DNA from: Desulfarculaceae bacterium
GTDB lineage: Bacteria > Desulfobacterota > Desulfarculia > Desulfarculales > Desulfarculaceae
Direction of reading: 5' to 3'
DNA length: 64,000 nucleotides
Assembly (NCBI GenBank): GCA_020444545.1
Contig: JAHLKT010000004.1
Span: 62,001 to 126,000 of the forward strand
In this document: positions 7,438-53,365 of the stretch, piece after piece
Position numbering within the stretch: position 1 is the stretch's first letter
How the letters are laid out: the number at the start of each line of letters is the position of its first letter
The notes under the pieces: generated by a model
Told to the model about the DNA's origin: nothing
Databases searched by the model: none
Seen by the model: only the letters and a program-made list of their open reading frames with translations
Translations under genes and position numbers: made by a program

Positions 7438-8196
7438 ATGCCATCCAAAACCGGCTACCGGGCGCCTTCGGTGGCCAGGGCCTTGAAAATACTGGAGCTG
7501 GTGGCTCAGAGCAACGACGGCCTGGGCATCAGCGAACTTTCCCGCCGTTTGGAGATCAGCAAGGGCACCGTCTTCGGCCTGTGCAACCAGCTGGAGTCCG
7601 GCGGCGCGCTCAGCCGCGACCCGGAGAGCAAGCGCTACGGCCTGGGCCCCCTGGTGGCCACCCTGGCCCGGCGCGGCTTTGCCCAGGCCAGCCTGCGCGA
7701 CGCTGCCGCCCCGGAGATGACCCGCCTGTGCACCCGCCTGGACGAGTCGGTGTTCCTGGGGGTCATGGGCCGGGGCGAGGTGCTGGTGGTGGAGGCGCGC
7801 CAGCCCCCGGAGAAGATTCGCATCTCCGCCGGGCCGGGCACCCGCCTGCCCCTGTTGGCCGGGGCGGTGGGCAAGGTATTTTTGGCCAGCCAGACCCCGG
7901 ACAAGGTGCGCGAATACCTGGCCGACGGCCTGCCCCGCTTCACCGAGCACACGGTGAGCGACCCGGAGGAGTTCATCGAGCAGCTGGACCAGGTGCGCCG
8001 CCAGGGTTTCGCCCTGGAGCAGGACGAGTTCCTCAGCGGAATCTGGGGGGTGGCCGCGAGCCTGGGCGTGTCCGGGGGGATGCCCGCCGCGCTCTACGTG
8101 GTGGGCTTCACCACCTCACTCTACACCGGCCGCCTCCAGGAAGTGGCTCGGGAGACCCTGGCCGCTGCCAAGCGCATCCAAAGGGCGTTGGACTAA
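7438..8196 (+). CDS. IclR-family transcriptional regulator
   Basis: A 252-residue regulator with an N-terminal winged helix-turn-helix (about residues 8-65: SVARALKILELVAQS, then ISELSRRLEISKGTVFGLCN, and YGLGP) and a C-terminal GAF-like effector domain with PGTRLPLLAGAVGKVFLAS and FALEQDEFLSGIWGVAA. The effector is unknown. The ATG at 7438 has GGAGAA 4-10 bases upstream. Divergently placed to the SPOR gene with a promoter in the shared intergenic space. No obvious target operon adjoins it. Confidence 0.93.
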   Translation: MPSKTGYRAPSVARALKILELVAQSNDGLGISELSRRLEISKGTVFGLCNQLESGGALSRDPESKRYGLGPLVATLARRGFAQASLRDAAAPEMTRLCTRLDESVFLGVMGRGEVLVVEARQPPEKIRISAGPGTRLPLLAGAVGKVFLASQTPDKVREYLADGLPRFTEHTVSDPEEFIEQLDQVRRQGFALEQDEFLSGIWGVAASLGVSGGMPAALYVVGFTTSLYTGRLQEVARETLAAAKRIQRALD

Positions 8197-8502
8197 CGGG
8201 GCTTACCGTCCGCATTTAAGGATAAAGAGTTTCGAAGGGTAAGATTTGGTCCGCCTTGGCGGCTCGGGCGTTGGCCTGCGTCCCGGGGCGCGAGTCAAGC
8301 GGCGTGTCGTGGCGCGAGGCCGGGGCGGGCTTAACCGCTGGTGGCGGCAGCTTGGCGGGCACAGCTCGATTAGCCCGAGGCAGCCAGATAGGCGCGATAA
8401 TGCCGACGCGATTTGTCGGCGACCGAGCGGGCCCCGAAACACGTGGCAGCTCCCTGCCCCCACTTCTTTCTATTCCCAACCTCTTATCTTCTTCCTTTCC
8501 CC
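8197..8502. other. Intergenic region without recognised gene
   Basis: This 306-base gap separates two converging genes. It is GC-rich at the left and has a pyrimidine-rich stretch near 8460-8510. Short open frames are present on both strands but have no start signals or recognisable protein features. No clear terminator, tRNA or repeat was seen. Confidence 0.5.
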
Positions 8503-8808
8503 CTATTCGCCCTTAACCCGAAACCAAGGCCCGTCAATGCGCTGGCCCTTGCACTGGGGGCAGCGCCCCGGCGCGTCCAGGCGGTTGCGCTTTTCAAAGA
8601 CATAGCCGCAGGCGAGGCAGCAGGCGGGCTCGATGACTAGCCGCCGCTTGAGCGAGTGCTGTAGGTGGGTCAGGTGCTCCTCCGCCTCGGGGCGGGTGAG
8701 CAAAAGGGCGGAGGCCAGCTCCTGGGCGGACCAGGGCCCCTGCTCGAGCATTTGCTCCATGTTTTGCCGAATGGTCAGGCGCAAGGAAAAGTGACCCCAG
8801 CCGTGCAT
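8503..8808 (-). CDS. wHTH/zinc-ribbon predicted transcriptional regulator
   Basis: A small protein with an N-terminal winged helix (LTIRQNMEQMLEQGPWSAQE through HLTHLQHSLKRR) and a C-terminal zinc ribbon with CLACGYVF and CPQC. This arrangement is that of COG3357-type predicted regulators (HTH fused to Zn-ribbon). The ATG at 8808 would lie inside the 3' end of the SRP RNA on the same strand, and no good Shine-Dalgarno precedes it. A TTG at 8784 or the ATG at 8760 is an alternative, so the N-terminus is uncertain. Regulon unknown. Confidence 0.78.
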   Translation of the reverse strand: MHGWGHFSLRLTIRQNMEQMLEQGPWSAQELASALLLTRPEAEEHLTHLQHSLKRRLVIEPACCLACGYVFEKRNRLDAPGRCPQCKGQRIDGPWFRVKGE

Positions 8809-9066
8809 CCCGCTTTGAGCCGGCCGCCAAAGAAGCTGTGAAGCGCGGGGTCAAGGACCAGAGCGCTCCGCGACACGCGCCGCATCGCTTACCGCTGCTT
8901 CCTCCCGGATCTGACGGGGTTCACGACCGCACGTCGCGCGGTGTCCGGACTGAACCCCCCGAACACAAGTACTTCCAAGGCGGCGCCGCCCGGGGCGGGC
9001 CTTCGACCCCGCGAAAGCGGATTTCGGGTGCAGGGCACCGCTAGCTCCCCGTCTAGCACGGCCAGG
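8797..9066 (-). ncRNA. ffs: Signal recognition particle RNA, large (Alu-containing) type
   Basis: On the minus strand the universal SRP domain IV is present: GTCAGATCCGGGAGGAAGCA lies at about 8894-8913, flanked by GAACCCC and GCGGTAAG. About 140 bases upstream is GTGCTAGACGGGG, followed by GAGCTAGCGGTGCC, the 5' Alu-domain signature of the long SRP RNAs of Bacillus type (recalled from memory, one mismatch). The 5' GCCGTGC (about 9063-9057) pairs perfectly with GCACGGC near the 3' end (8806-8800), closing the molecule at about 270 nt. Inner pairing of GGGGTTCA-like and TGACCCC segments fits helix 5. The exact ends are estimated. Confidence 0.88.
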
Positions 9067-9093
9067 GTCGAATTCGAATGGTCTAACATTAAC

Positions 9094-9126
9094 AAAAAAA
9101 CGGCCCCGCCGCTCTACGGGCGGGGC
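9094..9126 (-). terminator. Rho-independent terminator after the IHF/HU gene
   Basis: On the minus strand GCCCCGCC pairs with GGCGGGGC around an 8-base loop and is followed by CG and seven Ts. It lies 54 bases beyond the stop codon of the IHF/HU gene and just upstream of the SRP RNA, insulating the two. Confidence 0.9.
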
Positions 9127-9179
9127 AGTTATTCAAATTTCGCGCACGGAACGGCCTCAAGAGCAGGCCGCGCGGGGAC

Positions 9180-9461
9180 TTAGTCCACGCTGTCCACGCG
9201 TTCCTTCAGCTCTTTACCGACCTTGAAGAAGGGAAGCTTCTTTTGGCCAACGTCGATGATCTCGCCCGTCTTTGGGTTGCGTCCTTGGTAGCCGTCGTAG
9301 TCCTTGACCTTGAAGCTGCCAAATCCGCGTATTTCCACCCGATCACCGATAATGAGGGCGTCTTCCACCGAGCCGAACATGGTGTTTACCACCATCTCCG
9401 CTTTTTTGATGGTCAGGCCCTCGGCCTTGGCCAACGCCTCTATGAGCTGTGACTTGTTCAT
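9180..9461 (-). CDS. IHF/HU-family DNA-binding protein
   Basis: A 93-residue nucleoid protein. The N-terminal helices (MNKSQLIEALAKAEGLTIKK) are followed by VEIRGFGSFKVKDY and the DNA-contacting arm GRNPKTGEII, with the intercalating proline in NPKTG; PFFKVGKELKERV closes the body. The GRNPKTGE arm is common to HU and both IHF subunits, so which subunit it is cannot be settled. AAGGAG is 8 bases before the ATG. It has its own promoter (9509-9537) and terminator (9094-9126), so it is monocistronic. Confidence 0.94.
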   Translation of the reverse strand: MNKSQLIEALAKAEGLTIKKAEMVVNTMFGSVEDALIIGDRVEIRGFGSFKVKDYDGYQGRNPKTGEIIDVGQKKLPFFKVGKELKERVDSVD

Positions 9462-9842
9462 AGACGGGCACTCCTTGCCACTATGGAAACTGCAAGCTTT
9501 AGCTAACGATTGTATGCAGTTGGAGGCGTCCTGTCAAGCGGCTTGACCTCTCAGGCGGACCAGGCCCGGCCATGCCGCCAACCATCGCCTTATCATGCGT
9601 AGTTGAGCAAGGGGGGGACTGTCAAGCATTTTTTACATTTTCCCTTGCGAATTTGGCCCCTTGCCTATGACCGCCCCTCGCCGGAAGCGACCCCGCCCCG
9701 GAGAGGCGATCGCCGTTTCGCCCTGTATGCATGGGGCCTTTGGGCATTCGGCCTCCCGCCAAAAATTAGAGCCCGGCCCGACGGCTCTTTATAGCCCCGC
9801 CCGGTGTATGCTACAAGCTAATTAGTCAGTTGAAGGAGCAAC
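9462..9842. other. Divergent intergenic region
   Basis: A 381-base non-coding stretch between the IHF/HU gene and the exported-protein gene. It holds the IHF/HU promoter (9509-9537) and a second minus-strand TTGACA at 9625-9620 with only a weak -10 (TACGCA). Near 9768-9788 AGAGCC pairs with GGCTCT, with five Ts shortly beyond on the minus strand. A 63-codon frame on the plus strand has no coding features. Confidence 0.5.
9509..9537 (-). promoter_or_regulatory. Sigma70-type promoter of the IHF/HU gene
   Basis: TTGACA (9537-9532), a 17-base spacer, then TACAAT (9514-9509) on the minus strand. This is one of the best consensus promoters in the window and lies 48 bases upstream of the ATG. Confidence 0.82.
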
Positions 9843-10853
9843 ATGCCCATGCGCCGATTCATCGCCCTGGGGGCGGCCCTCTTGACAGCCTTGTTCCTGG
9901 CCGGGTCTTCGGCGGCCCAGACGCCGGAGCAATTCATGGAGCAGGCCGTGTATCGCCACTCCTTTGGCGAACACACCTTCCGCCTGCCCCCCAAGGAGTT
10001 CGCCTTTTTGGTGGACAACCTGGTGGGCGTGCTCACCATGGCCAGCCAGCCCGGCTTCCGGCGCCGGCACCCGGAGGTGCAAAACCTTTACCTGGAACGC
10101 CTCACCGGCAGCCCCCGCGACTTCACCCTGGGCATGGCCGGCCAACAGGCCCGGGTGCGCATGCAGTGGCTGGACGACAAGAAAATCCTCTACCTGGCCG
10201 AGGTGAACCTGAACAAGCTGGGCCTGAGCATCACCGGCCAGTTCATGGCCCTGGTGGAACTTGCCTATGCCTCGCCCGAGGCCCCCGGTGTGCGGGCCAA
10301 GATCACCGTGGCCTTCAAGCCTTCCTCCTCGGTGGTGGGCATGGCCCTCAAGCCGGTGATGGGCGCCTTTGACAAGGAAGTGGACCGCATCGGCCAGCGG
10401 GCTCTGGGCCTGGCCGATCAGTTCATCGCGGTGTACGCCTCCGAGCAAGGCGGCGCCTTCAGCCGGGCGGGCCTGCTCAGCGAAGTGGCCGCGCTCAACC
10501 AGCAGCGGCAGGAACTGGCCTCCCGGGCGGGCGCCAAGCCCGCGTCCCCGGCCTCGGCCCAACACCCCGTGGCGTGGCTGGCGGCCCTGGCCGGCGGGGT
10601 GATGCTCTTAATCATCGGCCTGTTCTTGGGCCGCTGGTGGGCGGGCCGCCGCCCCGAGGCCCGCCGGGCCGGTCAGCTAAAAATTCTGCGCCGGGCCCAG
10701 CGTGAGCAGGAGTCCCAGGATCGCGGCCTGGTCCGGGTGCTCAAACGCCGGGGCCTTAGCACCGCCGAGGCCGAGGCCGCCCTGGCCGAGCACCGCCGCC
10801 TGAGCGCCGAGCTGAAACAGCGGGTCGAGCGGGCCGCCGCTCCCCAGGCCTGA
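9843..10853 (+). CDS. Exported membrane-anchored protein of unknown function
   Basis: A 336-residue protein. Residues 1-26 are a signal peptide (RRFIALGAALLTALFLAG, cleavage near SSAAQ). A periplasmic region of about 220 residues follows, then one membrane helix near residues 245-267 (WLAALAGGVMLLIIGLFLG) and a basic cytoplasmic tail with a helix-turn-helix-like, Glu/Arg-rich end. No family was recognised. AAGGAG precedes the ATG. It is 20 bases upstream of the methyltransferase-glycosyltransferase fusion and may be co-transcribed with it. Confidence 0.75.
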   Translation: MPMRRFIALGAALLTALFLAGSSAAQTPEQFMEQAVYRHSFGEHTFRLPPKEFAFLVDNLVGVLTMASQPGFRRRHPEVQNLYLERLTGSPRDFTLGMAGQQARVRMQWLDDKKILYLAEVNLNKLGLSITGQFMALVELAYASPEAPGVRAKITVAFKPSSSVVGMALKPVMGAFDKEVDRIGQRALGLADQFIAVYASEQGGAFSRAGLLSEVAALNQQRQELASRAGAKPASPASAQHPVAWLAALAGGVMLLIIGLFLGRWWAGRRPEARRAGQLKILRRAQREQESQDRGLVRVLKRRGLSTAEAEAALAEHRRLSAELKQRVERAAAPQA

Positions 10854-24038: not shown

Positions 24039-24068
24039 TTGAAATCAATAAACAAAAACAGGTATAAA
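24039..24068 (+). promoter_or_regulatory. Promoter of the exopolysaccharide/exosortase operon
   Basis: TTGAAA (24039-24044), an 18-base spacer and TATAAA (24063-24068), both 5 of 6. An in-frame TTG at 24039 lies within this promoter, so translation must start later, at the ATG at 24126. Confidence 0.75.
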
Positions 24069-24125
24069 GACGTAGCGGCGTTTCCCAAAAAGGGGCCCGG
24101 CATTGGCCCCGGCGAGGCTGTTGCC

Positions 24126-24752
24126 ATGAGTTTGATCACAGGTCGAAGCTTCTTCAGGTCGAGCATCCTGGCCCTGGTGGTTTTGGTGGCTCTGGCGGCG
24201 GCCTGGTCCGCCCCGGCCCTGGCCGCCAAACCGGCGGTGCAAAAGGAGCCGGTGGCCCAAAAAGAACCCATCTACCGTATAGGACCCAGCGACCTTTTGG
24301 AAATCATCACCTGGCGGGAGGACATGCTCACCCGCAAGGACGTGTTGGTGCGCCCGGACGGCCGCATCTCCATGCCGCTCACCGACGACATCATGGCCGC
24401 CGGCCTCACCCTCATGCAGCTCAAGTACCGCATCACCAAGGCGCTCAGCCACTTCCTGGAGGCCCCCCAGGTCTACGTGGTGCTCACCAACCCCCGCCAC
24501 TACGAGTTCAGCCTGGTGGGCAACGTGGAAAAGCAGGGCACCTACCAGATGCTAAAGCCCACCGATGTGTTGCAGGCCCTGGCCATGGCCGGCGGCTTCA
24601 ACGAGTGGGCCGACAAGGACGACACCTTCATCCTGCGGGGTGTGGGCCCCCGTCAGATACGCTTCCCCTTCGAGTACTCCGAGGTGATCGAGGGGGAGAA
24701 ACGGGAGCAGAACATAATCCTGCAACCGGGCGACATCATAGTCGTCCCTTAA
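24126..24752 (+). CDS. Polysaccharide export protein (Wza/XrtA-type)
   Basis: A 208-residue protein starting at ATG 24126 with a signal peptide (ILALVVLVALAAAWSAPALA). The mature part has a Poly_export domain (YRIGPSDLLEIITWREDML, then VRPDGRISMPL) and a SLBB-like segment (FSLVGNVEKQGTYQML) ending QPGDIIVVP. No lipobox cysteine is seen. It would form the periplasmic/outer-membrane export channel component for the polymer. First gene of the long exopolysaccharide operon. Confidence 0.92.
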   Translation: MSLITGRSFFRSSILALVVLVALAAAWSAPALAAKPAVQKEPVAQKEPIYRIGPSDLLEIITWREDMLTRKDVLVRPDGRISMPLTDDIMAAGLTLMQLKYRITKALSHFLEAPQVYVVLTNPRHYEFSLVGNVEKQGTYQMLKPTDVLQALAMAGGFNEWADKDDTFILRGVGPRQIRFPFEYSEVIEGEKREQNIILQPGDIIVVP

Positions 24753-26152: not shown

Positions 26153-27796
26153 ATGGAAGCTGCCGGCATTGACATAAAAAGTTATCTATTCCTGCTCAAG
26201 CGCAGGTGGGTAATGATCGTGCCCATCTTCCTGGTGGTGTTGGCCGGCGGGTTGGCCTATTGCCTTTTCTGGCCCCCCATTTACGAGGCCTCCTGCCTGG
26301 TGGTGGTGCAGCCCCAGAAGGTGCCGGGCGACATCATCCGCCCCACCGTGACCACTAAAATCGAGGAACGCCTCCAGATCATCACCCAGCAGGTGCTCTC
26401 GCGCACCCGGCTCACCGAGATCATCGAGCGCTTCGACCTGTATCCCAAGATGCGCGACAAGGTCACGCCCGACGAGCTGGCCGAGCGAATGCGCAAGGAC
26501 ATCACCATCAAGATCAGCCGGAAGAACTACTTCACCATCACCTTCCTCTACACCAGCCCCCCCACGGTGGCCGCGGTGACCAACGCCCTGGCCGCGTTCT
26601 ACGTGGACAGCAACCTGCGGCTCAGGGAGCAGGACGCGGTGGGCACGGCCCGCTTCTTGGAGCGCGAGCTCAAGCGGATGCGCGGCCAGCTCACCGAGTG
26701 GGAAAAGAAGATATCCACCTTCAAGCAGGAGCACATCCAGGAGCTACCCGAGAGCCGCAACTTGAACATCCGCCTGATGGACCAGGCGCGCCAGGACGCC
26801 AACATCATGGACGGCAAGGTGCAGGCGCTCCGGGTGCGCATCCACGGCTATGAGCAGAACATCGGCCAGTGGCAGCGCTGGATCGAGGGCCTGGAGCTGC
26901 AAAAGGCCGAGCAGCGGCGCAAGGGCGGCACCGGCGGCGCGGCCGACAGCCAGCAGATGGACTCCAGCCCCGACGGCATCAAAAAGCGCATCGAGAGCCT
27001 GAGGGTCTTCTACACCGACGACCACCCGGACATTCAGCGGCTGCTCCGGCACCTGAAAAAGGCCGAGGCCCTGGAGGCCGAGAAGAAGGCCCGCGAGGCG
27101 GCCGCGGCCAAGGCCGCCGGGCTCACCGAGAACCAGGCCGAACGCCAGAAGATGGACGAGCAGCTGGCCAAGGGCAAGGCCAGCATCGAAAAGCTCCAGC
27201 AGCGCATCGAGCAGATCAACACCGAGATCCGCGAGACCGAGCTGCGCAAGAACAAGATGCTGGAGCAGATGGACATAATCCAGAAGCGCATCGACAACGC
27301 CCCCCTGGTGGCCGAGAAGCTCCAGGACATGATGCGCGGCTACGACGAGCTCAACACCGCCTATCAGAAGCTGCACACCAAATGGCTGGAAGCGCGCATG
27401 TCCGCCAACATGGAGCGCACCCAGCGCGGCGAGCAGTTCGAGGTGGTGGACCCCGCCCAGGTGCCGGACGCGCCCTTCCGGCCCCAGGTCAAGCGGGCCA
27501 TACCGGTGTCCATACTGGTGGCCCTGGGCCTTTCGGTGGGCCTGGCCTTCGGCCTCAGCTACATCGACGTTTCCTACACCTCGGTGGGCCAGCTTGAGCG
27601 CCAGACCGGCCTGCCGGTGTTGTTGGTGGTGCCCGCCTTGGAGACCCCGGAGGAGCGCTCGTCCATGACTCGGCGAAACCTCATATTCGGGGCCATCTTC
27701 GGCGTGCTGTTCATGTTCCTCATGGGCATAGTGGGTATTCTGATCACGGGACGCGGGGCCGCCCTTAAACGCATGGTAGTCGGCTTCTTCTCCTAA
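26153..27796 (+). CDS. Wzz/GumC-like polysaccharide chain-length protein
   Basis: A 547-residue inner-membrane protein with a membrane helix at residues 20-38, a periplasmic Wzz domain, a long coiled-coil-rich region (about 170-430, many Glu/Lys/Ala) and a second helix near 448-466, with a third hydrophobic segment near 505-530. The PxxP-like motif RPQVKRAIPVSILVALGLSV precedes the C-terminal helix. Polymer length control is the family's role. It carries no kinase domain; a separate, degenerate BY-kinase is encoded two genes on. Confidence 0.9.
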   Translation: MEAAGIDIKSYLFLLKRRWVMIVPIFLVVLAGGLAYCLFWPPIYEASCLVVVQPQKVPGDIIRPTVTTKIEERLQIITQQVLSRTRLTEIIERFDLYPKMRDKVTPDELAERMRKDITIKISRKNYFTITFLYTSPPTVAAVTNALAAFYVDSNLRLREQDAVGTARFLERELKRMRGQLTEWEKKISTFKQEHIQELPESRNLNIRLMDQARQDANIMDGKVQALRVRIHGYEQNIGQWQRWIEGLELQKAEQRRKGGTGGAADSQQMDSSPDGIKKRIESLRVFYTDDHPDIQRLLRHLKKAEALEAEKKAREAAAAKAAGLTENQAERQKMDEQLAKGKASIEKLQQRIEQINTEIRETELRKNKMLEQMDIIQKRIDNAPLVAEKLQDMMRGYDELNTAYQKLHTKWLEARMSANMERTQRGEQFEVVDPAQVPDAPFRPQVKRAIPVSILVALGLSVGLAFGLSYIDVSYTSVGQLERQTGLPVLLVVPALETPEERSSMTRRNLIFGAIFGVLFMFLMGIVGILITGRGAALKRMVVGFFS

Positions 27797-27804
27797 AAGG
27801 CGTT

Positions 27805-29364
27805 ATGTACGAGGAATTTTTCCATTTCCGCGAGAAGCCCTTCGCACTGGAGCCCAGCGCGCGCTTCATCGTGCTCAGCCGCGACCACCGCGAGGCGCTG
27901 GCCACCCTGGTCTACGCCATCGACGAGCAGGAGGGCTGGGCCATGCTCCTGGGCCAGCCCGGGGTGGGCAAGACCACCCTGTGCATAGCGCTCTTGAGGG
28001 AGCTGGGCGAGCGGGTCATCCCGGCGGTGATCACCAACCCCCGGGTGGAGCCCCTGGACTTCATGAACATGATGGCCCTGGAGCTGGGCCTGCCAGGCCC
28101 CTATCGCAGCAAGGGCCAGTTCCTGGTGGCGCTCAACGACCTGATGAAGCAATGCCGCCGCCAGGGCAAGGCCATCCTGTTGGTCATCGACGAGGCCCAC
28201 AGCCTGTTGCCCGAAATGGTGGAAGAGCTTCGCCTGCTGGGCAACCTGGACGACTCCACCCCCCGGGTGCTCAACATCTTCCTGGTGGGCCAGCCCGAGC
28301 TCCTGAAGCTCATCAAGGACAGCGGGGGCGCCTCCCTGCTCCAGCGCCTGAGGCGCTACCACCTGCTCAAGCCCCTGGGCGACGACGAAACCGCCCGCTA
28401 CATCAAGCACCGCCTCCAGGTGGCCGGGGGCAACCCCGACACCTTTGACGAAGAGGCCCTGAGCGCCATCAGCCGCATCACCCGGGGCGTGCCTCGGTTG
28501 ATCAATTCGGTGTGCGACGACTCCCTTTTGCTGGCCTACACCCAGGACCAGGGTAAGGTGGGCCTGGCCCAGGTGGTGGCCGCGGCCAAGGAAGACCCCA
28601 GCCTGCGCTGGACCTTCGGCGACGCGGACCTGCTGCCCCCCGAGCCGGAGCCCGAGCCCGCCCCGGCCCCGGACGAGGCCTATGCCCCGGAAGAGGCCCA
28701 GGCGGCCGCCCCGACCACCACCGCGGACGCCCCTGCGGCACCCGCCGCTCCGGAGGCCCCTCCGGCCAAGGCCGGGCGCTTCAACCCGGCAGGGCTCATG
28801 CAAGGCTGGTCCTCCCGCCGGGTCGAGAAAAAGGCCCTGCGCCAGGAGGAAAAAGAGCATAAGCTGGCCGAAAAGGCCAAGATGGCCGAAGCCAAGGCCT
28901 TGGCCAAGGCCCAAGCCGCGGCCAACACCCAGGCCGAGGCCGAAGCGGCGGCCCAGGCCGAGGCCCGGGAAGCCGCCCGCGTCGCGGCGGCCCAAGCCGC
29001 ACCGCCCCAGGAGGCAGCCCCCTCCGGCGCGCCGCAAAAAAAGCGCGGCCTGCTCTCGCGCATGGCGGCCAGCATGTCCAAGGAGGCGCCGGGCAGCTTC
29101 TGGAGGCGCCTGGCCTTTTTGGCGGTGCTTTTCCTGCTGGTGGCCGGCGGCTACGTGGGCTATCAGAAATGGGGCCGCGACCTGGCCGTCCGGCTGGGTC
29201 TGGCCAAGCCCCGCCTGATGATGCCCACGGACCTGACCTCGCCCCTCCCGGGTTCCGAACGCGGGAACCAGCAGGAAGGCCCCCCGGATTGGGGCCCCCT
29301 GTATCGTCCGGGCGGACCGGCCAAACCCGGCGTGACGGCCCCCATGGGAAGCAAAAATGGTTAA
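27805..29364 (+). CDS. ExeA-like AAA ATPase with C-terminal membrane anchor
   Basis: A 519-residue protein. The AAA domain (residues 1-270) has Walker A GQPGVGKTT, Walker B LLVIDEAH and the typical start MYEEFFHFREKPFAL of the ATPases found in XrtA loci and in ExeA-type secretion. A Pro/Ala-rich linker follows, then Ala/Lys/Glu coiled coil (about 340-410), one membrane helix (LAFLAVLFLLVAGGYVGY) and a short periplasmic end. It overlaps the next gene by 8 bases. Both nucleotide motifs are intact, unlike in the neighbouring BY-kinase. Confidence 0.88.
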   Translation: MYEEFFHFREKPFALEPSARFIVLSRDHREALATLVYAIDEQEGWAMLLGQPGVGKTTLCIALLRELGERVIPAVITNPRVEPLDFMNMMALELGLPGPYRSKGQFLVALNDLMKQCRRQGKAILLVIDEAHSLLPEMVEELRLLGNLDDSTPRVLNIFLVGQPELLKLIKDSGGASLLQRLRRYHLLKPLGDDETARYIKHRLQVAGGNPDTFDEEALSAISRITRGVPRLINSVCDDSLLLAYTQDQGKVGLAQVVAAAKEDPSLRWTFGDADLLPPEPEPEPAPAPDEAYAPEEAQAAAPTTTADAPAAPAAPEAPPAKAGRFNPAGLMQGWSSRRVEKKALRQEEKEHKLAEKAKMAEAKALAKAQAAANTQAEAEAAAQAEAREAARVAAAQAAPPQEAAPSGAPQKKRGLLSRMAASMSKEAPGSFWRRLAFLAVLFLLVAGGYVGYQKWGRDLAVRLGLAKPRLMMPTDLTSPLPGSERGNQQEGPPDWGPLYRPGGPAKPGVTAPMGSKNG

Positions 29365-30346
29365 GCTAAGCGACGTTCTGGACAAAAAGGGCCGCAGCCT
29401 CAAGGAGGCCGACCTGGAGGAACACGATCGCCAGGCGGCGGTCGAGGAAAAGCCCCTTGCTCCTCCCAAGGCGTCTCCCGCCGCTACCCCGGCCGCCCCG
29501 GCGCCGCCCGCTCCCCCGGACAAGGCCCCGCGCAAGGGCGCGGCCCACATGCCCATAGCGCCAAAGCCGCAGGGCGACATCCCCTTGACCCCTCCCCCGG
29601 TCAAGCCCATGGGCGCGGAGGAGGCTGCCCGGCTGGTCAGCTATTACTCGCCCAACAGCCCCGAGGCCAAGCGCATCGACATGCTGCGCTCCCAGTTGCT
29701 CTACCCCTTCCACGGCGAGCCGCCGCGCACCATCATGATCACCAGCGCGGCCCCCCGGGAAGGGCGCAGCCTGCTCACGGCCAACCTGGCCATCTCCTTT
29801 GCCCGCGGGCTCCAGCAATACGTGATGGTGATGGACTGTCACCTCAACGAACCGGCCCAGCACCGCCTGCTGGGGGTGCCCCGGGTGCCGGGGCTCACCG
29901 ACTTTTTGCTCTGGGACCGGCCGGTTCCCGAGATCATGCACTGGTCCGAACTGGGCAAGAGCTCGGAGGTGGGCACGCATGCGGAGGAGGATCAGCGTTC
30001 CAGGCTTTCGGTGATCCCGGCCGGCAGCCCATCCAACCGCTCGGCCGAGATCCTGGCCACGGACAAGATGCTCGGCCTGCTCAAGGAATTGCGCTCCCGC
30101 TACAAGGACCGCTACATCCTCCTGGACACCCCGCCGGTGCAGGCTTTCGACGACCCCGCCGTGTTGGCCCGCATGGTGGAGGGCATCGTGGTAGTGGTCC
30201 TGGGTGGGGTCACCGACCGGGAGCTGGTGCTCCGCAGCATCCGCTCCTTGCCCGAGGAAAAGATCGTGGGCCTGGTGCTCAACGACATGAAATCCGCCGT
30301 GATGGATGCTCCCGCCCTGGGCACTTTGCAGGGAGAGAACACCTAA
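29357..30346 (+). CDS. Degenerate BY-kinase/CpsD-like ATPase
   Basis: A 329-residue cytoplasmic protein with a Pro/Ala-rich N-terminal tail and a BY-kinase/ParA-like domain (about 95-310). The P-loop reads TSAAPREGRSLLTANLA: the invariant lysine of the GK[ST] motif is arginine (codon CGC). The Walker A' motif reads VMDCHLNEP, where DAD is usual. Walker B YILLDTPP is normal. The C-terminal tail has no tyrosine at all, so the usual autophosphorylation cluster is absent. It probably keeps the fold and the Wzz partner but may lack kinase activity. Confidence 0.85.
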   Translation: MVKLSDVLDKKGRSLKEADLEEHDRQAAVEEKPLAPPKASPAATPAAPAPPAPPDKAPRKGAAHMPIAPKPQGDIPLTPPPVKPMGAEEAARLVSYYSPNSPEAKRIDMLRSQLLYPFHGEPPRTIMITSAAPREGRSLLTANLAISFARGLQQYVMVMDCHLNEPAQHRLLGVPRVPGLTDFLLWDRPVPEIMHWSELGKSSEVGTHAEEDQRSRLSVIPAGSPSNRSAEILATDKMLGLLKELRSRYKDRYILLDTPPVQAFDDPAVLARMVEGIVVVVLGGVTDRELVLRSIRSLPEEKIVGLVLNDMKSAVMDAPALGTLQGENT

Positions 30347-30347
30347 C

Positions 30348-31784
30348 ATGCTGATCCTTTCCGGCAGGCCTTCCCCTTACATCATCGCCTTTGTCCTGGG
30401 TGAGTCCCTGCTAATGGTGATCGGCGCGGTGTTGGCGGTGTACTTCCGGCTGGGCACCACCGCCGAGCTCCTCACCTTCCGCTACTCCTGGTACCGCCTG
30501 CTGTTGGTGCCGTTCGTATTGCAGGTCGCCTTCTACTACTCGGACCTGCACAACTTCCGCATCAGCCGCCCCTTCATCTGGACGGTGGCCCGGGTCACCC
30601 AGGCCATGGCCGTGGGCACCCTGGGCCTGGCGGTGATCTACTACTTCCTGCCCCGCCTGCTCCTGGGCCGCGGCATTCTTTTCCTGAGCTTTTTCATCAC
30701 CACCCTGTTGGTGCTCATCTGGCGCGGGCTCTACGGCTGGGCCCTCAGGCAGCGCTTCCTGGCCTCGCGGGTGCTCATCCTGGGCGGCGGCTCTTTGTCC
30801 GACTCCATCGTCGAGGAGCTCCTGGGCCGCTCGGACAACGTGTACAACGTGGTGGGCATCATGAACATTTTGGGCGAGGGGGGCCGCCGGGCCGGGGACG
30901 ACGACGAACCGGACGTGGACCTGATGCCCCAGTGGGCCTCGCTGCTCCGGGCCGAGCTCCGCCACGACCCCACCGAGCTGGTTGGCCTGGTCAACTACCT
31001 GGAGGTGGACCTGGTGGTGGTGGCCATGGACGAAAAGCGCGGCCGCATGCCCATGAAGGAGCTCCTGGAGTGCCGCATGCTGGGGGTGCCCATCATCACC
31101 GGCGAGGATTTTTACGAGACCATCGCCGGGCGCATCCTGGCCCAGCGCATCCGGCCCTCCTGGCTGGTATTCTCCTCGGGCTTCACCACCAGCCGCCTGC
31201 GCACCTTCACCAAGCGGGCCATGGACCTGGGCCTGTCCTCACTGGGCCTGATCCTCACCGCGCCCTTCACCGCCCTGGTGGCCCTGGCCATCAAGCTGGA
31301 GAGCAGGGGCCCGCTGATCTACAGCCAGCAGCGGGTGGGCCAGAACGGCAAGCTGTTCTACGCCCACAAGTTCCGCTCCATGGTGGCCGACGCCGAAAAG
31401 GTCTCCGGTCCGGTCTGGGCCGAGGAGAACGACCCGCGCATAACCAAGGTGGGCCGCTTCATCCGCAAGGTACGCCTGGACGAGATTCCCCAGATGTACA
31501 ACGTGATCAAAGGGGAGATGAGCTTCGTGGGGCCCCGGCCGGAGCGGCCCCATTTCGTGGAGCAGCTGACCGAGGAGCTTCCCTTTTACAACGAGCGCCA
31601 CAAGGTGAAGCCGGGCATCACCGGCTGGGCCCAGGTCTGCTATCCCTATGGCTCCACCGTGGCCGCGGCCCTGGAGAAGCTCAACTACGACCTGTACTAC
31701 ATCAAGCACTCCAGCCTTAGCATGGATGTGATGATCATCCTGCAAACCGTCAAGATCATTCTGTTCGGAGGGGGGGGACGATGA
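30348..31784 (+). CDS. EpsB-like polyprenyl glycosylphosphotransferase
   Basis: A 478-residue membrane enzyme that would start EPS synthesis by loading a sugar phosphate on undecaprenyl phosphate. Four N-terminal helices and a CoA-binding-like domain are followed by the bacterial sugar-transferase domain: KRAMDLGLSSLGLI, LIYSQQRVGQNGKLFYAHKF, RKVRLDEIPQMYNVIKGEMS and GPRPERPHF. The order matches TIGR03013-type PEP-CTERM system transferases. ATG 30348 follows GGGAGAG, one base after the BY-kinase stop. It overlaps the exosortase start by 4 bases. Confidence 0.92.
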   Translation: MLILSGRPSPYIIAFVLGESLLMVIGAVLAVYFRLGTTAELLTFRYSWYRLLLVPFVLQVAFYYSDLHNFRISRPFIWTVARVTQAMAVGTLGLAVIYYFLPRLLLGRGILFLSFFITTLLVLIWRGLYGWALRQRFLASRVLILGGGSLSDSIVEELLGRSDNVYNVVGIMNILGEGGRRAGDDDEPDVDLMPQWASLLRAELRHDPTELVGLVNYLEVDLVVVAMDEKRGRMPMKELLECRMLGVPIITGEDFYETIAGRILAQRIRPSWLVFSSGFTTSRLRTFTKRAMDLGLSSLGLILTAPFTALVALAIKLESRGPLIYSQQRVGQNGKLFYAHKFRSMVADAEKVSGPVWAEENDPRITKVGRFIRKVRLDEIPQMYNVIKGEMSFVGPRPERPHFVEQLTEELPFYNERHKVKPGITGWAQVCYPYGSTVAAALEKLNYDLYYIKHSSLSMDVMIILQTVKIILFGGGGR

Positions 31785-32659
31785 GCGGTCAACCGGACGA
31801 GGCCAGGCACGGCGGCCCGCCGCGCCCCTTGACCATCCTGGCCTGGGCCGTGGTGCTCAGCCTGCTGGCCTGGATCTACGCTCCGCATGTGGCGGGCATG
31901 GTGGCCAACTGGTGGGACGACCCCAACTACTCCCACGGCTTTTTGGTCCCCTTGATCTCGGCCTATCTTCTCTGGCGCCAGCGCGACCAGCTGGCCAAGG
32001 CGGCGGCCGGGCCCAACTACCTGGGCCTGGCGGTCATCGGCGCCGGACTCCTCATGCTGGTGGCGGGCCAGCTGGCTCATGAATTCTATCTGCGGCGCAT
32101 CAGCCTCATCCCGGTGATGTGGGGCCTGGTGTTCCTGGCCTGGGGCTGGGGGGTGGCCCGGCGAAGCATCTTCGCCTTCGCCTACCTCATCCTCATGGTG
32201 CCCCTGCCCTACCTGCTCTACGACGCGGTGGCCTTTCCCCTCCGGCTCATCGCCGCCGAGGTGGCCGCCTGGGGCATCCGCCTGTTCGGCATCCCGGTGT
32301 ACCTGGAGGGCAACGTCATCCACCTGCCCAACTTGGTGATGAACGTGGTGGACGCCTGCTCGGGCATCCGCAGCCTCATCTCCCTGCTGGCGGTGGGGGT
32401 CATCCTGGCCTACCTTATCCTGCCCAACCGCTGGATAAAGGTGGTGGTGGTGCTCCTGGTGCCGCCGGTGGCGGTGTTCACCAACGCCCTGCGGGTCACC
32501 GCCGCAGGCATCCTGGCGGTCTACTGGGGCCGCGAGACCCTGGAAGGGGTGATGCACGACTTCGTGGGCTGGGTGGTGTTCATGGCCGGTTTCGTGATCC
32601 TGCTGTTCATCACCCTGGGCCTCAAGAAGCTTTTCCCCGAAGGGAGGCGTCAGGCATGA
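31781..32659 (+). CDS. Exosortase (XrtA/EpsH-type)
   Basis: A 292-residue polytopic membrane protease/transpeptidase with about eight helices. The catalytic triad is visible: Cys193 in NVVDACSGIRSLISLLAV, Arg238 in TNALRVTAAG and His259 in MHDFVGW. Exosortases cleave PEP-CTERM sorting signals and probably attach the protein to a surface glycan. ATGA overlaps link it to the glycosyltransferase before it and to epsI after it. Which exosortase subclass applies was not determined. Confidence 0.95.
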   Translation: MSGQPDEARHGGPPRPLTILAWAVVLSLLAWIYAPHVAGMVANWWDDPNYSHGFLVPLISAYLLWRQRDQLAKAAAGPNYLGLAVIGAGLLMLVAGQLAHEFYLRRISLIPVMWGLVFLAWGWGVARRSIFAFAYLILMVPLPYLLYDAVAFPLRLIAAEVAAWGIRLFGIPVYLEGNVIHLPNLVMNVVDACSGIRSLISLLAVGVILAYLILPNRWIKVVVVLLVPPVAVFTNALRVTAAGILAVYWGRETLEGVMHDFVGWVVFMAGFVILLFITLGLKKLFPEGRRQA

Positions 32660-51964: not shown

Positions 51965-53365
51965 TCAGGCGGCCAGGGCGGCCAGGGCGCGGGCAATGGC
52001 CGCGGCGTCGCCGTCCTGAAGGGTGCGGGGATCGATGAGCAGGTGTCCGTCTTCCAGGCGGCAGATTATGGGCGGGTCGCCCCCGCGCAGGGCCTGTTCC
52101 AGGCGAGTGGGGCTCATGCCCTCCACCTCCACCTGCACCAGACGGGTGCGCGGCGCGGACAGGGGCATGGCGCCTCCGCCCACCCGGCTCACCCCCTCGC
52201 GGGTGCTCACCTTGAGCCGCTCCAGGCCCAGGCCCTTGAGCCGCCGGGCCAGGCGCGCGGCCCGGCCCGAGAGGCGCTCATAGGGCGCGGTGATCATGGC
52301 CAGGGTGGGTATCTCGGCCAGGGCCTTCTCGGGCTCGCGGTAGAGCTCCAGGGTGGCCTCCAGGGCGGCCAGGGTCAGCTTGTCCACCCGGAGGGCGCGG
52401 TTGGTGGGGTTCTTGCGGCAGCGCTCCACGTACTCGGCCTTGCCCAGGATCACCCCGGCCTGGGGACCGCCCAGGAGCTTGTCGCCGCTGAAGGTGACCA
52501 GGTCCACGCCCTCGGCCAGGGCCTGCTGCACCGTGGGCTCCTTGGGCAACCCATAGGGCGAGAAGTCAACCAGGCTGCCCGATCCCAGGTCCTCCATCAC
52601 CGGCAAATGGTAGCGGTCTCCCAGGGCCTTGAGCTCGCTCAGGGAAACTTCCTTGTGAAAACCCACCACCGCGAAGTTGGAGGTGTGCACCTTGAGCAGC
52701 AGCGCGGTGTTGGAGGTGATGGCGTTCTCGTAGTCGTGCAGATGGGTCTTGTTGGTGGCCCCGACCTCGCGCAGGATGGCCCCGGAGCGGGCCATCACGT
52801 CCGGGATGCGGAAGGAGCCGCCGATCTCCACCAGTTGGCCCCGGCTCACCACCACCTCGCGCCCCGCGGCCAGGGTTTGCAGGCTGAGCAGCACCGCGGC
52901 CGCGTTGTTGTTCACCACCAGAGAGGCCTCGGCTCCGGTGAGCTCGCAGAGCAGCCGGTCCACATGTACGTAGCGGCTGCCCCGGGCGCCCTGGGCCAGG
53001 TCGTACTCCAGGTTGCTGTAGCCCTGGTTCAGCTCCAGGAGGCGCTCCAAGGCCCGCTTGGTCAGCAAGGAGCGCCCCAGGTTGGTGTGCACCACCACCC
53101 CAGTGGCATTGACCACCCCCCGCAGGCTGGGCGCGGCCAGGCACAGGGCCAGCTCGGCCGCAGCCGAGGCCGTGGCCTCCAGCTCCAGCTCGGCCGGAGT
53201 CACCTCTTCATCGGCCAGCAGGCGGCCCCGCAGGCCGTCCAGATATTGGCGCACCGCCGAAAGCACCACCGGGCGGGGCACCTGGCCCTCCAGGGATGCA
53301 ATGCGGGGGTGGACCAAGAGGGTGTCCACCTTAGGCAGACGCGCCAACTGCTGCTGATCCGGCAT
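51965..53365 (-). CDS. selA: L-seryl-tRNA(Sec) selenium transferase
   Basis: A 466-residue PLP enzyme converting seryl-tRNA(Sec) to selenocysteinyl-tRNA(Sec). Signatures are NATGVVVHTNLGRS, NNNAAAVLL and the PLP lysine in TFSGDKLLGGPQAG (Lys296, position as in E. coli SelA). LEDGHLLIDPRTL ends the protein. selB, selD and tRNA(Sec) are not in this window. The presence of selA implies that the genome encodes selenoproteins. Upstream lie NUDIX and YggT genes on the same strand. Confidence 0.96.
   Translation of the reverse strand: MPDQQQLARLPKVDTLLVHPRIASLEGQVPRPVVLSAVRQYLDGLRGRLLADEEVTPAELELEATASAAAELALCLAAPSLRGVVNATGVVVHTNLGRSLLTKRALERLLELNQGYSNLEYDLAQGARGSRYVHVDRLLCELTGAEASLVVNNNAAAVLLSLQTLAAGREVVVSRGQLVEIGGSFRIPDVMARSGAILREVGATNKTHLHDYENAITSNTALLLKVHTSNFAVVGFHKEVSLSELKALGDRYHLPVMEDLGSGSLVDFSPYGLPKEPTVQQALAEGVDLVTFSGDKLLGGPQAGVILGKAEYVERCRKNPTNRALRVDKLTLAALEATLELYREPEKALAEIPTLAMITAPYERLSGRAARLARRLKGLGLERLKVSTREGVSRVGGGAMPLSAPRTRLVQVEVEGMSPTRLEQALRGGDPPIICRLEDGHLLIDPRTLQDGDAAAIARALAALAA

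Follow-up and report, generated by a model that had tools for sequence, protein, structure and literature searches.

A probable bacterial-tyrosine pseudokinase, conserved in Desulfarculaceae, as the proposed scaffold for a two-part PCP-2 co-polymerase of an exosortase-associated EPS pathway

The 64,000-nucleotide stretch of Desulfarculaceae DNA that we analysed, referred to here as the window, contains a tight operon in which the genes for an OPX protein, a beta-barrel-like protein, a Wzz-like co-polymerase, an ExeA-like ATPase, a kinase-like protein, EpsB_2 and an exosortase follow one another in this order (Table 1). The end of the ATPase gene overlaps the start of the kinase-like gene by 8 nt. 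The listed reading frame of EpsB_2 opens at 30306; its start is most likely the ATG at 30348, which suits the operon better. A PrsT-like TPR protein is encoded further downstream, with other genes between it and the O-antigen-ligase-like protein. The co-polymerase matches TIGR03007 (1e-78) with 264.8 bits, under the cut-off of 278.85. The Walker motifs of the ATPase read GQPGVGKTT and LLVIDEAH and are intact; a preliminary description of this DNA was thus right that the kinase-like gene is kept in an EPS operon beside an ATPase with intact motifs. Elsewhere in the window, on the minus strand at 51965-53365, lies an open reading frame that appears to resemble L-seryl-tRNA(Sec) selenium transferase (SelA).

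Table 1. Positions in the window of the operon's genes and of the motifs discussed in the text
Feature	Position	Strand	Remarks
OPX polysaccharide export protein	24039..24752	+	PF02563 7e-22; TIGR03027 3e-33
Beta-barrel-like protein	from 24793		between OPX gene and co-polymerase gene
Wzz-like co-polymerase, 547 aa, without kinase domain, proposed partner	26153..27796	+	TIGR03007-like
Basic cytoplasmic C-tail TGRGAALKRMVVGFFS of co-polymerase, proposed docking peptide	27746..27793	+	
ExeA-like ATPase, 519 aa	27805..29364	+	TIGR03015-like, 1.4e-66
Probable BY-pseudokinase gene	29357..30346	+	ATG start, TAA stop, 329 aa
K105-x2-D108-x2-R111, charge-reversed ExxRxxR of helix alpha2	29669..29689	+	17/17 in family
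Walker A PREGRS, residues 133-138, R137 (codon CGC) at catalytic-lysine position	29753..29770	+	
Walker A' D160-C161-H162, H162 replacing second aspartate of DxD	29834..29842	+	
C-terminal region, Tyr-free after Y253, without Tyr-rich tail	30116..30343	+	
Walker B LLDTPP (from residue 255), intact	30119..30136	+	D257 in 17/17
EpsB_2 sugar-phosphate transferase	30348..31784	+	TIGR03013 484.5 bits, above cut-off
Exosortase, same operon	31781..32659	+	PF09721 1.6e-73
O-antigen-ligase-like protein	from 33468		downstream of exosortase

In the kinase-like protein a short conserved N-terminal helix and a Pro/Ala-rich linker (residues 1-90) precede a kinase-like domain that extends over residues 92 to 318 or thereabouts. 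Its nearest family is TIGR03018 (NCBIfam, XrtA-associated tyrosine autokinase), which it matches with 148.8 bits (E 1.3e-43). This score lies below the family cut-off of 230.65, a weak criterion, since just 6 genomes out of 297 in the phylum attain it. A phmmer search returned chains of VpsO, CapB, Wzc and Etk, BceF was also among the solved structures that the protein matched, and a Pfam search gave no match. AlphaFold models built with 11 close homologues were of low confidence, the mean pLDDT being 44 for the full-length protein and 47 for the domain only.

Among the features of an active bacterial-tyrosine (BY) kinase, the Walker B aspartate is present, and the Walker A lysine, the DxD of Walker A', the tyrosine-rich tail and the ExxRxxR motif are absent. 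We do not count the leading arginine of PREGRS as a loss, since that position is also variable in members with intact motifs, and the middle cysteine of DCH is common among canonical members. Tyrosine occurs only at residues 96, 97, 116, 155, 249 and 253, and the last 76 of the 329 residues are therefore free of it. The degenerate Walker A and A' motifs and a final 50 residues devoid of tyrosine had been recorded in the preliminary description and are as it gave them, the tyrosine-free stretch being longer than noted; the reversal of the interface motif, to which we return below, was not mentioned there. A 15-residue in-frame insertion, SSEVGTHAEEDQRSR, at residues 202-216 (29960-30004) is particular to the protein of the window and occurs in 0 of 16 orthologues.

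These orthologues come from 16 other Desulfarculaceae genomes, so that with the window's own protein the family comprises 17 proteins. In the genomes sampled, every member shares 69% or more identity with the domain of the window's protein; in 395 genomes of the phylum, no other match lies above 44%. Walker A' reads DCH in 17 of 17, and in none of the 17 do the last 30 residues contain a tyrosine. The position of the P-loop lysine is occupied by arginine in 15 proteins (14 of the 16 orthologues when the window is set aside) and by lysine in two, the sisters L039 and L074. Since these two keep it, lysine loss alone does not define the family; no member, however, has every motif intact. The comparison set consisted of 79 homologues that belong to other families in the phylum and were drawn from the better-scoring TIGR03018 matches, among which rarer degenerate forms may be under-sampled. 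All 79 have the P-loop lysine, and replacement of this residue was found, among the 17 family and 79 outside proteins, in the Desulfarculaceae family only. The position of the second Walker A' aspartate is D in 69 of the outside proteins, N in 6 and H in 4, and the tyrosine tail is weak or absent (at most one tyrosine in 30 residues) in 19 of 79. Loss of the tail is in fact recurrent across these loci, with at least 10 changes on the tree, and loss of the second A' aspartate required 4 changes. The alignment of homologues that the preliminary description had called for thus shows the losses to be family-wide in Desulfarculaceae. That description had also allowed for homologues with intact motifs combined with a sequencing error at this site; intact homologues do exist, outside the family and not within it, and there is no sign of an error. 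An error or a lone mutation is ruled out by the 16 orthologues, which have the same state in separate genomes.

The Desulfarculaceae proteins are monophyletic (SH-aLRT 100), with a long stem of 1.4 changes per column and short inner branches, and their nearest outside relatives, at about 40-44% identity, have the canonical state of each of the four features. In the kinase domain dN/dS is approximately 0.1-0.3 (NG86, members of the window's genus), and the gene is therefore under purifying selection; 84 of 209 domain columns are invariant over the 17 genomes. Because the nearest outsiders are canonical, the stem is long, dN/dS is low and so many columns are invariant, the most economical history would start from a canonical protein that changed in a burst before the family diversified and was strongly conserved thereafter. 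Parsimony places two changes at position 137. Parallel K-to-R changes would be about as likely as a reversal, because L039 and L074 encode their lysine by AAG, at a distance of three steps from CGC, and the codon of L041 is AGA. The same measurements bear on the notion that the gene is decaying and is kept solely by its position in the operon, as one might suspect from the missing tail and the several catalytic residues that are gone. The low dN/dS and the invariant columns rule this out, leaving it next to no probability; there are also no stops, and wherever the contig extends far enough the gene is found in the operon.

Further degenerate forms occur in two other families. In family f47 of the phylum the loci L101, L121 and L136 each encode a pair of BY-kinase-like proteins. 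The first has DAN and lacks a tyrosine tail; the second is short, keeps the lysine and reads DCH or DNH. They form another apparent pseudokinase pair, independent of the Desulfarculaceae. Stand-alone proteins of family f39 (L099, L112 and L123) have DVN or DVH, 0-1 tail tyrosines and a retained lysine, and are a candidate pseudokinase clade. At L151 (G021, 8142-10485), a locus of the same class, two BY-kinase-like genes lie in tandem, both with an intact P-loop and DxD and with 1 tyrosine in the last 30 residues.

Stem lengths were determined by one method for all loci and should be read with caution, because in an unrooted tree they vary with which nearest outsiders the sample contains. The values were 1.18 for the pseudokinase (median depth within the family 0.58) and 1.05 for the co-polymerase (0.68), compared with 0.74 for the ATPase (0.76), 0.57 for the sugar transferase/glycosyltransferase (0.63) and 0.59 for OPX (0.95). 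The two longest stems of the operon are those of the pseudokinase and the co-polymerase, an indication that it was the co-polymerase which changed together with the pseudokinase. The co-polymerase ends about 16 residues past its last hydrophobic stretch, and its short basic tail carries a motif, [TSM]G[RK][GA]xx[LF][KR], that is present at 11 of 12 family loci, in most as TGRGxALKR, and at 0 of 71 others. The sole family exception is L037, with a shortened reading frame. A precedent is provided by the pseudokinase EcpK of Myxococcus xanthus and its partner EpsV, as described in the published study (PMC12004946). EcpK binds EpsV according to two-hybrid and proteomic evidence, and in the model presented there the EpsV C-terminus lies in a groove of the pseudokinase and is anchored by two arginines. 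The likeness of the family C-tail to the C-terminus of EpsV is suggestive.

The preliminary description had proposed both that the pseudokinase partners with the Wzz-like protein and that the ExeA-like ATPase supplies the turnover of ATP. The first part, a prediction, is supported by the family-wide loss, the kinase-less Wzz-like protein, the shared operon, the long stems and the EcpK precedent (PMC12004946). The second part, in which the three proteins would constitute one machine, fares poorly and we consider it extremely unlikely. It is true that the ATPase and pseudokinase genes adjoin with a stop/start overlap, that the ATPase motifs are intact and that the two genes are jointly absent from two genomes (G006 and G012). 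These are, however, high-quality Desulfarculaceae genomes, one of them a single contig from the window's own genus, with neither the pseudokinase nor the XrtA-type ATPase nor an exosortase of any kind; this is loss or replacement of the whole locus, and joint absence is what any operon member would show. Moreover, a TIGR03015-like ATPase occurs in 53 of 75 sampled outside loci, mostly beside intact kinases, and is therefore a standard part of these loci rather than a replacement. Its stem shows no acceleration to match the loss.

The second kind of change concerns the contacts between subunits. In the S. aureus kinase, ExxRxxR provides one half of the octamer interface through salt bridges to loops of the neighbour, a contact that is essential for autophosphorylation and for polysaccharide synthesis; the other half of the BY-kinase ring interface is the tyrosine tail (PMC3795738). 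Both halves are altered in the pseudokinase, in which the tail is missing and the charges of ExxRxxR are reversed. The motif helix precedes the P-loop, and KxxDxxR is in register with the P-loop in all 17 proteins; the alignment of the pseudokinase with CapB, SPISEKFRGIRSN, is ungapped across the motif. Outside the family (n=79, three rows being gapped there) 73 proteins have E or D at the first position and 71 have K or R at the second. Charge changes at R296 (10/17) and E300 (17/17) are possible compensations for the reversed motif. The Wzc-like kinase encoded in the same genome (C3:670167) has EPLRIVR, an intact P-loop, DAD and a tyrosine-rich tail, and the KxxDxxR motif suggests that the pseudokinase makes ring contacts unlike those of active BY-kinases, of which this is an example.

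Eukaryotic pseudokinases regulate active kinases, and one may ask whether the Desulfarculaceae protein mixes with, or allosterically regulates, the Wzc-like kinase of its own genome. The latter is intact in its P-loop, DxD and tail, and CapB1/CapB2 of S. aureus have been discussed in terms of hetero-oligomeric regulation (PMC3795738). The charge-reversed motif, set against EPLRIVR, argues against a common ring, and in the case of EcpK the authors of the study reason against its depending on active kinases (PMC12004946). We therefore regard a hetero-oligomeric regulator as very unlikely.

The explanation that we favor, and consider probable, is that the protein is a BY pseudokinase, a stand-alone scaffold with the BY-kinase fold, which together with the kinase-less co-polymerase would make up a bipartite PCP-2 co-polymerase of the exosortase-associated EPS pathway. 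This proposal starts from what is established directly, namely homology, losses fixed throughout the family, purifying selection, linkage within the operon and a co-polymerase that lacks a kinase domain and ends in a family-specific basic C-tail. The pseudokinase would not phosphorylate tyrosine and would serve as the cytoplasmic scaffold of the co-polymerase, a role also put forward for EcpK and HfsB (PMC12004946). Its kinase-like domain would dock on the C-tail and form a ring under the co-polymerase, and assembly would be regulated by binding and unbinding, perhaps through nucleotide occupancy, and not by phosphorylation of a tail. The Wzc mutant K540M is kinase-dead yet forms stable octamers (PMC8285477), and thus a dead kinase can hold a ring. 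What counts against a pseudokinase is that L039 and L074 keep the lysine and that tyrosines other than those of a tail (Y96/97, Y249 and Y253) could in principle be phosphorylated.

The pocket itself has not been abandoned. S138, D160, H162, D257, D265 and D266 are invariant in the family, and residue 137 is always basic; H162 and D265 are rare or absent outside. Since residue 137 stays basic and both Walker B and the greater part of the P-loop survive, we think that a nucleotide or other phosphate ligand may still be bound, with slow turnover or none. RecA with a K-to-R replacement in Walker A binds ATP and hydrolyses it slowly (PMC5663514); by analogy, a nucleotide-bound state that is slow or locked would be plausible. 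A stronger version would make the protein a nucleotide clamp with a private ring, in which R137 and H162 hold the nucleotide without turnover, the KxxDxxR homo-oligomer cannot mix with the cell's own active ExxRxxR kinase, and ligand occupancy together with docking on the basic tail, rather than tyrosine phosphorylation, controls assembly of the co-polymerase. We put this forward only tentatively and think it somewhat unlikely. The state of the pocket could also be read as that of an active but unusual kinase or ATPase, with a site re-wired around R137, H162 and the extra acid D265 and with another protein as substrate. The strong conservation of the pocket residues, which show no erosion, the restriction of D265 and H162 mostly or wholly to the family, and the exchange of K and R at 137 while the remaining pocket stays, would all fit such an enzyme. 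Nevertheless, Wzc K540M is kinase-dead (PMC8285477, PMC11986026), the protein has no tyrosine tail and the vicinity of the locus is free of LMW-PTP phosphatases; of the two that this genome encodes, one lies on C1 and the other on C4, at a distance of about 210 kb. An active enzyme is in our judgment distinctly unlikely.

BY pseudokinases paired with co-polymerases are already known, although they have been described experimentally only recently. The following comparisons with EcpK/EpsV and HfsB/HfsA draw on PMC12004946. Like the Desulfarculaceae protein, whose fold is judged from sequence homology, EcpK is a stand-alone BY-kinase fold without catalytic residues or tyrosine tail, and EpsV is a PCP-2 protein without a kinase domain, with a short cytoplasmic C-terminus that contains arginines. 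All three Walker motifs are gone from EcpK, and its C-terminal helix is basic, whereas the Desulfarculaceae protein keeps Walker B and the EGxS of the P-loop, has exchanged K for R and ends in an acidic or neutral C-terminus; its operon, unlike that of EcpK and EpsV, is exosortase-associated. We found no mention of a reversed interface motif in the passages of the EcpK paper on which these comparisons draw. HfsB of Caulobacter crescentus is likewise described there as a stand-alone pseudokinase, required together with its PCP-2 partner HfsA, which it stabilises; it belongs to the holdfast pathway, and its likeness to the present protein is drawn from that description. For further pairs, for example in Syntrophus, the EcpK authors cite a sequence-based survey (PMC12004946). 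The Desulfarculaceae protein may thus be regarded, by its features, as a variant of the EcpK/HfsB type. With the TIGR03018 autokinase it shares the position in the exosortase EPS operon and an N-terminal MxKxxDxL helix, and it differs in scoring below the cut-off and in lacking the P-loop lysine, the second A' aspartate, the tyrosine tail and ExxRxxR. S. aureus CapB1 is also a BY-kinase that is reported to be inactive in vitro and has been discussed as a pseudokinase, although by that account it keeps its nucleotide site and tyrosine cluster (PMC3795738).

In the literature searched, which took in few subscription journals, no report joins XrtA/exosortase loci with a pseudokinase of this kind. 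What is new is a separate family-wide case, with an exosortase-associated operon, a retained pocket and a reversed interface. EcpK, in which the whole active site is lost, says little on the role of the pocket or of the ring interface. The Desulfarculaceae protein appears to represent a fixed halfway state, in which the chemistry of phosphorylation is gone, the pocket is kept and re-specialised, and the charges of the interface are reversed. Together with the canonical relatives to which they are about 40-44% identical, these proteins would constitute a natural mutant series that bears on what the PCP-2 assembly cycle depends on, be it phosphorylation, the binding of nucleotide or the ring alone.
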